This document shows positions 56,937-63,499 of a DNA stretch of 64,000 bases, in pieces (within the stretch, counting starts at the first letter, position 1; each line of letters opens with the position of its first letter). Under the pieces are notes generated by a model. The model saw only the letters and a list, made by a program, of their open reading frames with translations, ran no database searches and was not told the DNA's origin. The stretch lies in NCBI RefSeq assembly GCF_013408535.1, contig NZ_JACBZA010000001.1, forward strand, positions 5,292,850 through 5,356,849, written 5' to 3'. This DNA is from Actinopolymorpha cephalotaxi (GTDB lineage Bacteria; Actinomycetota; Actinomycetes; Propionibacteriales; Actinopolymorphaceae). A program made the position numbers and the translations under genes.

Positions 56937-58283
56937 GTGAGGGCAGAATCCCAGCTCGCCGGCGACCCGGCCGACCAACCGACTGTCCGGCCGGACGCCC
57001 ACCCCGACGATCACCCCGACGATCACCCGGACGCCCATCGGGCGATCGAGACGGTCTGGCGGATGGAGTCCGCGAAGCTGATCGCCGGGCTGACCCGGAT
57101 CGTGCGCGACGTCGGCCTGGCCGAGGAGCTCGCCCAGGAGGCGCTGGTCGCCGCCCTGGAGCAGTGGCCCACCGAGGGGGTGCCCCCGAAACCGGCCGCG
57201 TGGTTGATGACCATCGCCAAGCGGCGCGGGATCGACCGGCTGCGGCGGGAGGAACGGCGCGACCAGAAGTACGCCGAGATCGCCCGTGACCTCGACGTCG
57301 AACAGGGCGACCACGCGGCCGAGGTGGCCGCTGCCCTGGACGACCACATCGAGGACGACCTGCTCCGGTTGGTCTTCGTCGCCTGCCATCCGGTGCTGTC
57401 CACCGATGCCCGGCTGGCGATGACCCTGCGGGTGATCGGCGGCCTGCGTACCGACGAGATCGCCCGCGCCTTCCTCGTACCCGAAGCCACCATCGCCCAG
57501 CGCATCGTGCGCGCGAAACGCACGCTCGCCGCGTCCGGTGTGCCGTTCGAGATCCCCGAGGGTGCCGACCGTGCGGCCCGGCTGTCGTCGGTGCTCGAGG
57601 TGATCTACCTGATCTTCAACGAGGGGTACGCGGCGACCGCCGGTGACGACTGGCTGCGGCCGGCACTGTGCGACGAGGCGTTGCGTCTGGGGCGGATCCT
57701 GGCCGAGCTCGCACCGGGTGAGGCCGAGGTGCACGGGCTCGTCGCGCTGATGGAGATCCAGGCGTCGCGGGCGAGCGCGCGGGTGGACGTGTCCGGGGAG
57801 CCGGTACTGCTGCTCGACCAGGACCGCGGGCGCTGGGACCAGCTGCTCATCCGCCGGGGACTGACCGCGCTGGAGCGGGCCGACTCGCTGGGCCAACCAG
57901 CCGGGCCGTACGTCGTGCAGGCCGCGATCGCCGCCTGCCACGCGCGTGCCCGTACGCCGGAGGAGACCGACTGGACCCGGATCGTCGGGCTGTACGGCGT
58001 ACTCGCCGCGATGGTCTCCTCGCCGGTGGTCGAACTCAACCGTGCCGTCGCGGTGGGGATGGCCCGGGGGCCGGCGGAGGGGCTCGCCCTGGTGGACGCG
58101 CTGGTTGCCGAGGGTGCGCTCGCGGAGTACCACCTGTTGCCGTCGGTACGCGGAGACCTGCTGGTGAAGCTGGACCGGCAGGAGGAGGCGCGGGCGGAGT
58201 TCGAGCGCGCGGCCTCCCTTACCCGTAACGAACGTGAGCGTTCCCTGCTTCTGGGACGTGCCGCCGACTGCGCCTCCGGGTGA
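56937..58283 (+). CDS. ECF42-type RNA polymerase sigma factor with C-terminal TPR-like domain
   Basis: The 448-residue protein starts at a GTG. It has sigma region 2 (TVWRMESAKLIAGLTRIVRDVGLAEELAQEALVAALEQWP ... AWLMTIAKRRGIDRLRRE) and region 4 (LVFVACHPVLSTDARLAMTLRVIGGLRTDEIARAFLVPEATIAQRIVRAKRTL). A long C-terminal helical domain (about 200-448) contains VLEVIYLIFNEGYAA and EVHGLVALMEIQASR, diagnostic of the SigI/DUF6596 class. The first 38 residues (PDAHPDDHPDDHPDAHR) are an unusual His/Asp/Pro-rich extension that might bind metal. It pairs with the DGPF gene upstream, and the adjacent SRPBCC gene is a possible target. Confidence 0.9.
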   Translation: MRAESQLAGDPADQPTVRPDAHPDDHPDDHPDAHRAIETVWRMESAKLIAGLTRIVRDVGLAEELAQEALVAALEQWPTEGVPPKPAAWLMTIAKRRGIDRLRREERRDQKYAEIARDLDVEQGDHAAEVAAALDDHIEDDLLRLVFVACHPVLSTDARLAMTLRVIGGLRTDEIARAFLVPEATIAQRIVRAKRTLAASGVPFEIPEGADRAARLSSVLEVIYLIFNEGYAATAGDDWLRPALCDEALRLGRILAELAPGEAEVHGLVALMEIQASRASARVDVSGEPVLLLDQDRGRWDQLLIRRGLTALERADSLGQPAGPYVVQAAIAACHARARTPEETDWTRIVGLYGVLAAMVSSPVVELNRAVAVGMARGPAEGLALVDALVAEGALAEYHLLPSVRGDLLVKLDRQEEARAEFERAASLTRNERERSLLLGRAADCASG

Positions 58284-58343: not shown

Positions 58344-60371
58344 TCAGAACGGTGGCAGGTCGTCGTCGGCCGACCGTGTGCCCGCAGTGGCGGGTGCTGG
58401 TTCGTCGACCGGATCGGTGAGGGCCGGCGCTGTGCCTTTGTACTGGCGGCCGAACGGATCGGTCAGGGTGTGTTCGCCGGGCCCGGTCTGCTTCAGTTTC
58501 CAGTCCCTCTCGGTTTTCGCCTTGTGGTGACGTGGGCACAGCGGCGCGATGTTGTCCACGGACGTTTCGCCACCGTCGGCGTACTCGGTGTTGTGGTCCA
58601 GGTGACACGTCGCTGCCGGACGGCGGCAGGTGGTCCACACACACCGCTGGTCGCGGGCATGCACCAGCTCGGCCTGCAGTCCGCGCAGGAACCTCGCAGG
58701 TATCGGATGCAGATGCAGTAACCGCCCGGTGACCGGATGGGTGATGCCGACACTGAAGCGGGCTTCGGGATTGTCGAGGTGGTTCGCCACGATCCGGCGA
58801 GCCACCTCGGTGATGATGGGCCCGACTCCGCCGAGCTCACCGGGCTGGGTGGACAGCCCCATCAGGGTGGTCAGCGGCATGTTCAGCTGCACCTTGGCGC
58901 GCGTCTTGATCGGACCCCAGCTCGGCTGCGAAGAGGTCCACGGCGGCGGTGGCGGTGTGGAATTGTCTGTCGGCGGATCAGGCCGACCCAGCGGATCAGG
59001 CGGATCAGGCGGATCAGGCCGACCCGGCGGATCAGGTGGATCCGGCGGATCCGGCGGATCCGGCGGCTCGGCGTTGCGGGCTGCGGCCTCGTGGGCGGCG
59101 GTGTCGTGGACTCGGACCCCGTTCATCGCGGCCGCACCACACACGGTGCAGCTGGCCACCGGTGCCGGAGAACAGTTCCCACACTCACACCAGCTGTCGT
59201 GCAGGTCGTGGTCGGGGAACCGGTGAACAGCACAGTGCCCCAACTCGTCCTGGTCGGTATCTCCCTGCGCCCGCTCGCTCTCGGGCTGGGCGTCGTCTCG
59301 GGCTCGCGGCTCGTCTTCGGCCTGTTCGGCGTCGTCTCGCTCCTGCGGAGATTCGGCTTCCGCCGGGCGCTGCACAGAGTCGTCCTGCCCAGAGTCGTCC
59401 TGCCCAGAGTCGTCCTGCTCAGAGCCGTCCTGGGCCTGCTCCTCCGACTGTTGCTGCTCGGAGTCGTCCGGCCCATTGCCGTTCTCCCCAGAGTCCTCGT
59501 GCGCAGACTGGTGCTCAGTCTCGCCCTGGTCGGCGGTGGTTGTGGGGGCGGAGCAGTCGATCATGTCGGCGGTGCCGCTGAGCAGGGAGAAGGCGACGTC
59601 CGCGCGCAGTTGGCTCAGCTTGCGCGGGTCACCGGCGGACTTCACCGCACGCGCGATCGCGTCGATGTAGCCGTACGCCTCGGCGGCCTGGTCAGCGGAC
59701 AGTCCGCGGATGGCGAGGTCGGCGACCCCGTCGACGGCGGGCCAGATCGCGACGTTCCGCCCGGTCCGCGCGGCACGGTGCCGTTTACCGGCAGCCTCGG
59801 GGTCGGCTTTCACGACCTCGGACTCGACCTTCGCCCGCAACAACCCGCCCCGAAGTTCCAGCACCTTCGGGAAGATCGCGTCCTCGACCGCACCCCACAG
59901 ATCTGGCTTCGCGTCGGTGATCCGGTCCACGATCGCCCGCACGTCGGGCAGCTCCAGCCCACCAGACGCCAGCGCCGCACGCACACGCGGCAGACGCGGC
60001 AGGGTGAGGGCCAAAGCGAGGTACCAGCTGGCGCGGTAGCCCGACCACCGCAGCAAAGGTTCCAGCACGGCCTGGGTCATCGGGTCCATCTCGGCACTAC
60101 GCACAGCCGGCTCATCAGGCATACCGGGTTCGGCGTAGGCCAGCTCGTTCACCTCCGACAGACACTCGGCCTCCGCCCAGCCGATCAGCCGCCGCCACGC
60201 CCTGGCCCGCTCCTCCACCTCAAACCCGTTACACACCCCGCGATCCACCGACGCCAGCAGCACCGCAAGCCGCGGCCCACCCCGCACATCAGCGAACCCA
60301 TCCGGCAGCACCCGGCGACGACCCGGGCCATCGCCCAGGTCGTCGCCGAAGTACTCACCGCCGTCGCTCAT
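58344..60371 (-). CDS. DUF222 domain and HNH endonuclease protein with Cys-rich insertion
   Basis: The 675-residue protein starts at the ATG at 60371; a TTG seven codons upstream is possible. An N-terminal DUF222 helical region (about 30-270) is followed by an acidic Gln/Asp/Ser-rich stretch with DDSGQ repeats, a putative zinc knuckle CECGNCSPAPVASCTVCG, and a DPP-repeat linker. The C-terminal HNH nuclease reads HARDQRCVWTTCRRPAATCHLDHNTEYADGGETSVDNIAPLCPRHHKAK. DUF222/HNH proteins are repeated in actinobacterial genomes and some resemble the 13E12 repeat family. Whether they are homing nucleases or serve another purpose is unknown. Confidence 0.88.
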   Translation of the reverse strand: MSDGGEYFGDDLGDGPGRRRVLPDGFADVRGGPRLAVLLASVDRGVCNGFEVEERARAWRRLIGWAEAECLSEVNELAYAEPGMPDEPAVRSAEMDPMTQAVLEPLLRWSGYRASWYLALALTLPRLPRVRAALASGGLELPDVRAIVDRITDAKPDLWGAVEDAIFPKVLELRGGLLRAKVESEVVKADPEAAGKRHRAARTGRNVAIWPAVDGVADLAIRGLSADQAAEAYGYIDAIARAVKSAGDPRKLSQLRADVAFSLLSGTADMIDCSAPTTTADQGETEHQSAHEDSGENGNGPDDSEQQQSEEQAQDGSEQDDSGQDDSGQDDSVQRPAEAESPQERDDAEQAEDEPRARDDAQPESERAQGDTDQDELGHCAVHRFPDHDLHDSWCECGNCSPAPVASCTVCGAAAMNGVRVHDTAAHEAAARNAEPPDPPDPPDPPDPPGRPDPPDPPDPLGRPDPPTDNSTPPPPPWTSSQPSWGPIKTRAKVQLNMPLTTLMGLSTQPGELGGVGPIITEVARRIVANHLDNPEARFSVGITHPVTGRLLHLHPIPARFLRGLQAELVHARDQRCVWTTCRRPAATCHLDHNTEYADGGETSVDNIAPLCPRHHKAKTERDWKLKQTGPGEHTLTDPFGRQYKGTAPALTDPVDEPAPATAGTRSADDDLPPF
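58970..59072. repeat. 9-bp tandem repeats encoding the DPP linker of the HNH protein
   Basis: Repeated GGCGGATCC/GGCGGATCA units on the plus strand encode Asp-Pro-Pro repeats on the minus strand. Copy number is likely to vary between strains. Confidence 0.8.
59376..59430. repeat. 15-bp tandem repeats encoding DDSGQ units
   Basis: AGAGTCGTCCTGCCC recurs about three times and encodes DDSGQ repeats in the acidic linker of the HNH protein. Confidence 0.75.
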
Positions 60372-60582
60372 GCGTTCGAGTTTACCGCTCAAGATCAGCT
60401 CACGCTCGCGGGAAACCCCTTACCCACAAGACGAATCCGCGTCAATCTCAACTTGACCGAAAGCACGGCAACGTCGACCCACGTACATCCGACACCCGCC
60501 GCCGATACCCACATCGGGACCGCCCTGGCACCATACTCAGCACGCCGACCGCCGGCGTACCGGCGAGGACGGATGGACGACG

Positions 60583-61845: not shown

Positions 61846-62406
61846 TCACCTGAAAGAGGGGTCGGCGGCGACCGTCAGCCAGCGCAGCGCCGAACCGTCG
61901 AACGGCGGTTCGCCGGCCAGCATCAGCGCCGCCACCTCGGCACAGGAACGCCGGGCGGTCTCCACGTGCCGGGCCGGGACCGAGTAGCGCGCGACGTCGG
62001 CGGCCATCTCGTCCTCGTCGAGGACGGTCACCACACCGTGCCGGTCGCGAACGACGTCGAGGGTCAGGTCGACGAACGAGACGCCGTCGGCGCCCACCCG
62101 CGCCGGGGTCGAGATGTCCACGCGGTCCGGCTCCACGCCGTCGAAGATCCGCACCGACCCGTCAGCGCGGTGGGCCCGGAAGCCGACCGGCGGCACGCCC
62201 ATCCGTGCCACCCACCAGCAGTCGTACGGGTAGCAGAAGACCTGATCGGTCGAGTACCGAAGAATCGTGCCGCTGGCCCGCCGGACCGGGGACCCGGCCG
62301 GGAGCACGGCCCACTCGCCATGCTCGTCCCGGCCGAGTACGCGTTCGGACCACGACGCGTTGATCCGATCCGGATACTTCAGCTTGCGGGCGGTCCGAAA
62401 CCCCAC
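61846..62406 (-). CDS. DUF402 domain protein
   Basis: The 186-residue protein starts at a GTG 14 bases after the hemerythrin-domain gene stop and so is probably read by coupling. It has the DUF402 pattern: LKYPDRINASWSERVLGRDEHGEWAVLPAGSP, the Trp/Tyr-rich DQVFCYPYDCWWVARM, and SFVDLTLDVVRDRHGVVTVLDEDEMAADV, the acidic Asp-Glu-Asp-Glu site that binds metal and phosphate in DUF402 nucleotide phosphatases such as Ntdp. Hydrolysis of a nucleotide is the expected but unproven activity. It ends 26 bases from the opposing DUF2237 gene. Confidence 0.83.
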   Translation of the reverse strand: MGFRTARKLKYPDRINASWSERVLGRDEHGEWAVLPAGSPVRRASGTILRYSTDQVFCYPYDCWWVARMGVPPVGFRAHRADGSVRIFDGVEPDRVDISTPARVGADGVSFVDLTLDVVRDRHGVVTVLDEDEMAADVARYSVPARHVETARRSCAEVAALMLAGEPPFDGSALRWLTVAADPSFR

Positions 62407-62420
62407 GCCGGCGGCCCGGA

Positions 62421-62966
62421 CTACTGCGACTTCAGAGCCTGGGTCAGCTCTTCCTTCGACATGCTCGCCGTGCCTTCGATGCCGGCGTTGCGTGCCTGGA
62501 TGAGCAGTTCTTCCTTGGTCTCCTGGCCGGGCTGCTCGCCGATGTGCTTCTCCCGGCTTGCCGCGAACGCCTTGCCAAGATCCTCGCGGCGCGCGTCGTC
62601 GAGCCGGTCGCGGAGCCCGGGAAGAACCTGGCTCTCCTCCTCGTCGACGTGGTGCTGCACCGCCTCGACGAACTCGTTCAGCTTGGACTCGAAGCTCGGG
62701 TCCTGAGGATCGGTGGCCTTCAGCCGGGCAAGGAGTTCCTCGGCCTCGGCGTGCTCTTCCTGGCTGTGCGCGACCTCGTCGGTCTCTCCCGCCTCGCCGC
62801 GAGCCACGGGGTAGACCTCGGCCTCCTCGGCCCGGGAGTGTGCCACGAACAGGGCCGACAGCTCGGGCAGTGTCAATGCCCGCTTGTCAGGCTCGTTCTG
62901 CAGGACGTCGAACAACCGCTCGACCTCGCGATGGTCTGCCATGATCAGGTCGACGACATCCGCCAT
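62421..62966 (-). CDS. Hemerythrin-domain protein with SAP-like C-terminal motif
   Basis: The 181-residue protein has a hemerythrin-type four-helix bundle (1-125) with potential diiron ligands His12, His43, Glu47, His68, His72, His106 and Glu110 (MADHREVERLF, VAHSRAEEAE, AHSQEEHAEAEE, HHVDEEES). The C-terminal 32 residues (149-180) form a separate helical motif with TKEELL.., I.G and SKEEL..AL that resembles SAP/Rho_N DNA-binding hairpins. Nearly the same motif ends the next gene. The ribosome site is GAGAGGAAA. Roles in O2, NO or iron handling are typical for the domain. Confidence 0.86.
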   Translation of the reverse strand: MADVVDLIMADHREVERLFDVLQNEPDKRALTLPELSALFVAHSRAEEAEVYPVARGEAGETDEVAHSQEEHAEAEELLARLKATDPQDPSFESKLNEFVEAVQHHVDEEESQVLPGLRDRLDDARREDLGKAFAASREKHIGEQPGQETKEELLIQARNAGIEGTASMSKEELTQALKSQ

Positions 62967-63099
62967 AGGTGTTTCCTCTCCCCGATGTTTCCAGCTTCTT
63001 TGGGCACGGCCGTCGGCCGCGTCGCCATTGCACCATGGTTCCTGGTTGGTCGCTTGTCGCGACGACGCGGCAGCGCGGGCGGCCGGAGGGTGACGCCGG

Positions 63100-63432
63100 T
63101 CACGTGCCGAGCGCGCGCTCCAGCTCGGACTTGGTCATGCCGGAGCGGCCCTTGATGTTGCGCCGCCGCGCCTCGCCGTACAGCTCCTGCCTGGTCCGCC
63201 CCTTCGGGCCGGACCGGTTGCCGGAGCGCTGACCACCGCGCTGCTGCGGCGACGTGTCCTTGACGGACTCCGTGCTGGCCTGGTCGGACTCACCGGACTG
63301 CGCGCGGTTCTTGTTCACCGTGCGGGCGGCGATCTCCTTGGCCCGGCCCTCGCCGGCGCCACGGTCCTCGGCGGACTCCTTGACGTGCTCGTACTGACGT
63401 TCGCGTTTGGAACCCCAGGCCTGCTGTGGCAT
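63100..63432 (-). CDS. Small basic protein with SAP-like C-terminal motif (plasmid-stabilisation-like)
   Basis: The 110-residue protein starts at the ATG after GATCGGAG. The N-terminal part, WGSKRERQYEHVKESAEDRGAGEGRAKEIAARTVNKNRAQ, is the pattern of a group of actinobacterial proteins sometimes annotated as plasmid stabilisation proteins. It is followed by a disordered Ser/Gly/Gln-rich linker and a C-terminal motif (80-108, TRQEL.., I.G, MTKSEL..AL) that probably binds DNA. The motif matches the tail of the hemerythrin-domain protein encoded just downstream. Confidence 0.8.
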   Translation of the reverse strand: MPQQAWGSKRERQYEHVKESAEDRGAGEGRAKEIAARTVNKNRAQSGESDQASTESVKDTSPQQRGGQRSGNRSGPKGRTRQELYGEARRRNIKGRSGMTKSELERALGT

Positions 63433-63499
63433 CGGAAACTCCGATCTCCGTACTTCGCTTTCTGCGAAGCACGTACCCCGCGGCCGGGCGATCACACGC

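Follow-up and report, generated by a model that had tools for sequence, protein, structure and literature searches.

A shared helix-extension-helix-like tail on a hemerythrin and a neighbouring small basic protein of Actinopolymorpha cephalotaxi

Among the helix-extension-helix (HEH) modules, Rho_N and SAP domains bind nucleic acid and LEM domains bind proteins; all three have the helix-extension-helix arrangement. Both the HEH module and its use on Ku are already known, and Streptomyces KuB is described as ending in a C-terminal SAP/HEH domain (PMC5124664, PMC1378119, PMC11936186). The hemerythrin-like protein of M. kansasii is characterized as a nitric oxide (NO) peroxidase (PMC8913304). For M. 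smegmatis, PMC4694148 gives the SigF consensus as GTTT-N14-19-GGGTA and reports the ChaB MSMEG_1802 and the hemerythrins MSMEG_2415 and MSMEG_6212, which may or may not carry the tail, as lowered in a sigF mutant.

We analysed a 64,000-nucleotide stretch of A. cephalotaxi DNA (the window), near one end of which a hemerythrin gene and the gene of a small basic protein lie side by side (Table 1). We read both proteins, with a probability of roughly 0.6, as members of a SigB/SigF-type stress set that end in a mobile HEH docking tail of the Actinomycetota. The resemblance to Streptomyces KuB lies in the C-terminal position, and the Ku of the same genome shows the tail pattern. KuB is a DNA-end-binding protein, whereas in the window the tail sits on a diiron protein and on a small basic one. 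The small gene precedes the hemerythrin gene on the same strand with 133 bases between them; a mechanical open reading frame listing starts the small gene further out than the 63100-63432 interval used here. A DUF402 protein (31.7 bits, cut-off 23.9) is encoded at 61846-62406 on the same minus strand. Its gene begins approximately 15 bases past the hemerythrin stop, and the two genes perhaps form a single transcript.

Table 1. Positions of the two genes, their tails and the putative promoter element in the window.
Feature	Position	Strand	Basis
Hemerythrin HHE protein with predicted C-terminal HEH tail	62421..62966	-	181 aa; Pfam Hemerythrin
Predicted hemerythrin HEH tail, residues 150-178 (TKEELL...QAL)	62433..62519	-	pair alignment, model, sub-threshold Rho_N
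Small basic protein, 'plasmid stabilization protein' family	63100..63432	-	110 aa; tblastn vs plasmids
Predicted small-protein HEH tail, residues 80-108 (TRQELY...RAL)	63109..63195	-	pair alignment, model, sub-threshold Rho_N
Putative SigF/SigB-like element GTGT-N15-GGGTA, upstream of small gene	63474..63497	-	sequence match

The preliminary description of this DNA had claimed that residues 150-178 of the hemerythrin and 80-108 of the small protein align without gaps over 29 positions with 13 identities, and a recount gave exactly 13/29. The ungapped local score of the real pair was 65, and the best among 300 shuffles of both proteins was no higher than 50; in 60 shuffles the best 29-mer held 7-9 identities. 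BLASTP with the two proteins alone returned 14/33 identities (E 7e-6), and hhalign of 12 hemerythrin tails against 11 small-protein tails gave E 9.2e-12 at 97% probability. Full-length profiles of the two families also aligned at the tail region (E 1e-6). Chance likeness of the two tails, for which the description had proposed a profile search as the check, is excluded by shuffles that never reach the observed score, by BLASTP and by the profile comparison. When the tail of the window hemerythrin was compared with 78 tail proteins from a phylum survey, the median number of identical residues was 12 of 29 and the highest 18 (shuffled controls: mean 6, maximum 10). The 13/29 of the window pair is thus close to the median for the whole module, so the neighbours are not specially close copies of each other, and recent copying between them is unsupported.

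Rho_N (PF07498) was the only Pfam model matched by both window proteins, with 14.9 bits for the hemerythrin and 14.4 bits for the small protein. Since both scores lie under the gathering cut-off of 24.9, we call the tails Rho_N-like HEH modules and do not file them as Rho_N members. At E <= 0.1 the model matched 10/21 hemerythrins (best E 1.1e-4) and 16/21 small proteins (best E 0.0013), and bridging relatives passed the cut-off, among them a tailed Ku with 25.6 bits and the small basic protein of locus L270, described below, with 26.2 bits. Two other places in the A. cephalotaxi genome also exceeded it, one of them a 310-aa protein with 28.7 bits. The AlphaFold model of the hemerythrin (whole-model mean pLDDT 94.5) has tail helices at 151-160 and 171-179, and that of the small protein has them at 81-90 and 101-108 (tail-block pLDDT 83-89). 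In each predicted structure the two short helices are joined by an extended link as in an HEH module. The resemblance to SAP/Rho_N proposed from the sequence was borne out by these models, by the sub-threshold Rho_N matches and by the bridging relatives over the cut-off. Both tails are therefore very probably HEH modules of about 31 residues, Rho_N/SAP-like in kind. They differ from described Rho_N/HEH domains, SAP included, in this short length, in scoring below the cut-off and in standing at the C-terminus of small stress-type proteins; the domain of Rho is N-terminal according to the Pfam description. Solved structures searched with the tail profiles gave no significant match (best E 0.11 for an unrelated enzyme and 0.22 for a Rho), and Foldseek with the small-protein model found no structure at E <= 0.001. 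VIA-align tied no HEH structure to that model, in rows that cover mainly residues 3-66 and barely sample the tail.

The module is not confined to these two hosts. Within the A. cephalotaxi genome a profile of the small-protein tail (E <= 1) found 5 places: the window small gene, a second small-family gene, the Ku gene (Pfam Ku 169.8 bits), the hemerythrin gene and, weakly, the 310-aa protein. In the phylum survey 49/149 genomes, A. cephalotaxi included, matched the same profile at E <= 0.001. The survey sample was made up of every frame listed for the other genomes, 78 frames from 48 genomes. Pfam recognized Rho_N in 50 of these frames (E <= 0.001 for Rho_N), ChaB in 18, DUF7218 in 8 and Ku in 7; by pattern, 17 were ChaB, 23 belonged to the small-protein family and 10 were small basic proteins of histone-like appearance. 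The module lay 13 residues or fewer from the C-terminus in 74/78 frames. Of the four exceptions, L098 and L145 carry it near the N-terminal end, and L116 and L134 extend 107 and 18 residues past it. A class-wide scan found the tail profile in 153/246 genomes. The match at L009, inside a binding-protein frame, looks by eye like chance. Judged by sequence, the module is a mobile C-terminal tail that actinobacteria carry on stress and DNA-repair proteins of several kinds.

The ChaB and DUF7218 proteins resemble the window small protein in being small and ending in the same module, but Pfam recognizes their N-terminal domains and the window small protein matches neither. Its full-length homologues are the Streptomyces 'plasmid stabilization protein' family: tblastn matched 21 plasmid records, 16/21 of them covering >= 80% of the query, and the best plasmid match spans 99% of the protein at 59.6% identity. 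The name 'plasmid stabilization protein' is the annotation under the match in 10/21 records. It is an annotation name only, and the window gene sits in a one-contig genome of 6.86 Mb.

The window hemerythrin belongs to the Pfam Hemerythrin family (PF01814, 66.2 bits, cut-off 25.3), and H12, H43, E47, H72, H106 and E110, which we take to be the iron ligands, are invariant in 21 aligned hemerythrins. Its best match among solved structures was the M. kansasii protein (6q09). The hemerythrin fold is shared (Foldseek E 3.6e-4, TM 0.70 of query; phmmer E 1.1e-8, residues 24-144), but the Foldseek identity is 22% and the phmmer match stops before the tail. The model of RIC iron-sulfur repair proteins (TIGR03652) gave 14.5 bits, far from its cut-off of 204.7, which places the protein outside that family. 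Hemerythrins count among the known encapsulin cargoes, and the tail could on that ground be read as a peptide that loads its host into an encapsulin compartment. A search for encapsulin (PF04454, E <= 0.01) found nothing in the own genome and, as a control, gave matches in 3/14 genomes. The tail is also shared with Ku, ChaB and other proteins that are not known to us as cargo, and we regard this reading as barely conceivable. The best NCBIfam match (58.4 bits, E 7e-16, residues 4-140) was the family of P. aeruginosa PA2171 (NF053874), an inhibitor of translation and FtsZ involved in persister formation. PA2171 binds ribosomes (PMC13041383). A corresponding action of the window hemerythrin on ribosomes is very improbable, as the score lies far under the family cut-off of 190 and the match again ends before the tail.

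A scan of named genomes yielded at least 85 confirmed hemerythrin loci, of which the best 80 were analysed. The sample is biased towards tailed forms by a query profile that included the tail; the tail profile used to score the loci was built from the relatives' tails. In these best 80 of 85 loci the tail was found at E < 0.01 in 76, weakly in 3 (Nocardioides copies, E 0.055-0.068) and not at all in 1 (L229). Tailed hemerythrins occur in many actinobacterial genera; the loci come from Actinopolymorpha, Kribbella, Lentzea, Kibdelosporangium, Saccharothrix, Glycomyces, Jiangella, Amycolatopsis and Nocardioides, among other genera. Across the class, 125/246 genomes contained a hemerythrin match (E <= 1e-12), which reached the tail (position 173+) in at least 22 of the 125; among the matches listed, most stop short of it. 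A second hemerythrin in the own genome has no tail (L154). A tree was built from 63 hemerythrin domains, 45 tailed and 18 tail-less (seven rows undecided by score and L258 set to 'tail' by eye, one of the seven dropped as a duplicate); 3 label changes suffice on it, and it has three long branches. So few changes indicate that the tail is largely inherited within its branch, and independent gains by hemerythrins are unsupported. Locus L269 (1059-5305) packs three hemerythrin genes with tail-like ends, one of which has diverged strongly, into approximately 4.2 kb of the same strand.

A second tail gene was present within the flanks (<=3 kb) of 16 of the best 80 of 85 hemerythrin loci and in none of the other 64, where nine of the 80 have flanks cut by contig ends. 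The 16 comprise 10/11 Lentzea loci, 'Nocardia sp. NRRL S-836', 3/3 Amycolatopsis, 1/13 Kribbella and an Acidimicrobiia MAG. The second tail gene belongs to the small family in 15/16 (by eye) and to DUF7218 in the MAG (67.2 bits). The Lentzea and Amycolatopsis copies are related and represent only a few independent events. Since a genome has at most a handful of tail genes, we roughly estimate that a neighbouring tail gene is expected by chance in well under 1% of loci. The phylum survey, with its 78 tail genes in 48 genomes, contained 0 pairs within 5 kb (0.095 expected) and showed no general clustering of tail genes. In 57 relatives 5 tail-gene pairs were found against 0.087 expected. All five belong to the window's genus; three join a hemerythrin and a small-family gene, and two, in one genome, join a small-family and a small basic gene. 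In A. rutila the sole small-family match lies approximately 93 kb away from the hemerythrin. The preliminary description had singled out the neighbouring pair as such. Its view holds in that the two families adjoin in several lineages and have a stress-promoter-like element in common, and has to be qualified in that the module occurs on several unrelated kinds of protein. Its further idea, a common DNA or partner target by which O2/iron/NO sensing might be linked to nucleoid protection, is conjecture.

Several individual loci deserve mention. In Actinopolymorpha pittospori (L270, 1054-1751; L271, 1396-2233) a small-family gene stands beside a histone-like basic gene, both HEH-tailed. In two genomes of one genus (L267, 1474-2949; L268, 232-1724) a tailed Ku gene is divergent to a tailed small-family gene. 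Lentzea sp. NEAU-D7 (L188) has a membrane-like frame at 2281-2976, on the same strand, between the tailed small gene and the hemerythrin gene; it gave no Pfam match. At L153 (636000-640500) an HEH-tailed ChaB-like gene preceded by GTTT..GGGTA is divergent to a tail-less hemerythrin gene.

One could suppose that the tail merely aids solubility or stability, has no specific target and persists by descent, and that two common families which share it are neighbours by coincidence. The mostly inherited distribution on the 63-domain tree and the lack of clustering in the phylum survey fit this supposition, as does the lower mean pairwise identity of the tail (65%, vs 76% for the hemerythrin domain, among 17 relatives). 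Against it stand the retention of the tail in 76 of the best 80 of 85 loci, its presence on a number of unrelated hosts and the adjacency of tail genes in several lineages. We consider such a passive element improbable.

The GGGTA upstream of the small gene starts 46 bases ahead of the start codon, and the GTGT of the element has one mismatch in the -35 part. No GGGTA was found in the 170 bases upstream of the window hemerythrin gene, which may be transcribed from the small gene's promoter. Among relatives, GGGTA occurred within 200 bases upstream in 37/44 non-redundant small-family genes, 50/69 hemerythrin genes and 147/867 controls, and it lay 30-65 bases from the start in 30/37 of the small-family and 47/50 of the hemerythrin occurrences. 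The controls were mechanical open reading frames from the same loci, false genes included; near-copies were thinned from the promoter set, and related species remain in it. Tailed hemerythrins alone gave 47/66 and tail-less ones 3/3, so the promoter does not track the tail. For the other hosts the counts were 8/19 (ChaB), 4/7 (DUF7218), 4/7 (small basic proteins) and 2/6 (Ku, not above control). The commonest letters in the small family spell GTTT-N15-GGGTA; a -35 signal shows only in the commonest letters of positions -19 to -16, which were G,T,T,T at 45-59% in this family and G,C,T,T at 28-56% in the hemerythrins. A loose -35 pattern gave no separation, with 15/37 and 13/50 against 43/136 in controls. 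The own genome contains seven matches to the SigB/F/G model at E <= 1e-10, two of which exceed its cut-off. On these upstream sequences, a general-stress regulation shared by both families appears likely.

We propose that the tail works in three steps. The first is computed: the two tails share ancestry with one another and with those of Ku, ChaB, DUF7218 and related small proteins, with a predicted HEH fold. In the second, as the upstream sequences suggest, the genes would respond to general stress via a GTTT-N15-GGGTA-like promoter. In the third, the tail would anchor the protein that carries it, either to nucleic acid or to a partner bound to the nucleoid. On Ku it would help to hold DNA ends, and on the hemerythrin it would position a diiron centre that consumes peroxide/NO close to DNA. 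The small basic protein, basic in body and tail, would itself be nucleoid-associated.

Net charge bears on the third step. It averaged +0.2 in hemerythrin tails (n=79), with -1 in the window tail, +5.0 in the relatives found with the small protein (n=30, including the ChaB-like L066 and L067), +3.6 in the 23 small-family survey members and -1.6 in Ku tails (n=7). The 'other' charge class of the survey was left unused; a regular expression had mislocated the tails of L098 and L145. The near-neutral tails weaken the case for DNA binding by the hemerythrin tail. Hemerythrin tails are, however, at least as basic as those of Ku, so charge cannot decide on DNA binding, and net charge was dropped as proof either way.

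The near-neutral hemerythrin tails, together with the very acidic body of the window hemerythrin (charge -21), favour a protein partner. The HEH tail would then serve protein-protein docking, and the hemerythrin would be recruited by a partner, perhaps the small protein, and never touch nucleic acid. T150, L154, A158 and N160 are invariant in the tails of 21 aligned hemerythrins, whereas small-protein tails conserve GRS.M.K, as if the two kinds of tail had different faces, and the recurrent adjacency of hemerythrin and small genes also agrees with a partnership. Ku tails, which sit on a DNA-binding protein, are however equally neutral or more acidic, and we judge an exclusive role in protein docking rather unlikely. 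Docking on nucleic acid is favoured by the Ku precedent and by the basic small protein. By analogy, the hemerythrin tail may dock on nucleic acid or the nucleoid, a reading that we put forward tentatively and at somewhat less than even odds; we give nucleoid or nucleic-acid docking a slight preference over a target that is protein alone.

If the tail does dock on the nucleoid, it would bring a diiron protein that consumes peroxide/NO to the site where DNA has to be protected, and the poorly named 'plasmid stabilization protein', ChaB and DUF7218 would gain a common and easily tested role. Even with a protein target, the tail would be a testable link between Ku DNA-end repair and redox stress in actinobacteria. 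A wider and more doubtful idea makes the HEH tail an address tag used throughout the general-stress regulon of actinobacteria, leading to one nucleoid site or one partner. Such a tag would gather hemerythrin, Ku, ChaB, DUF7218, histone-like and 'plasmid stabilization' proteins, and peroxide/NO removal, DNA-end protection and compaction would form one stress assembly. Among the papers listed by full-text literature searches, none was on hemerythrins with this tail; domain-architecture databases may well contain such entries.

Two other frames in the window were recorded. A 682-aa frame at 58344-60392 (minus strand) contains, by eye, long Pro-Asp-Pro and Asp-Ser-Gly repeats, as well as an HNH endonuclease domain (25.5 bits, cut-off 21.4). 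At 56937-58283 (plus strand) a 448-aa sigma-70 family protein with a DUF6596 domain (126.5 bits) is encoded.
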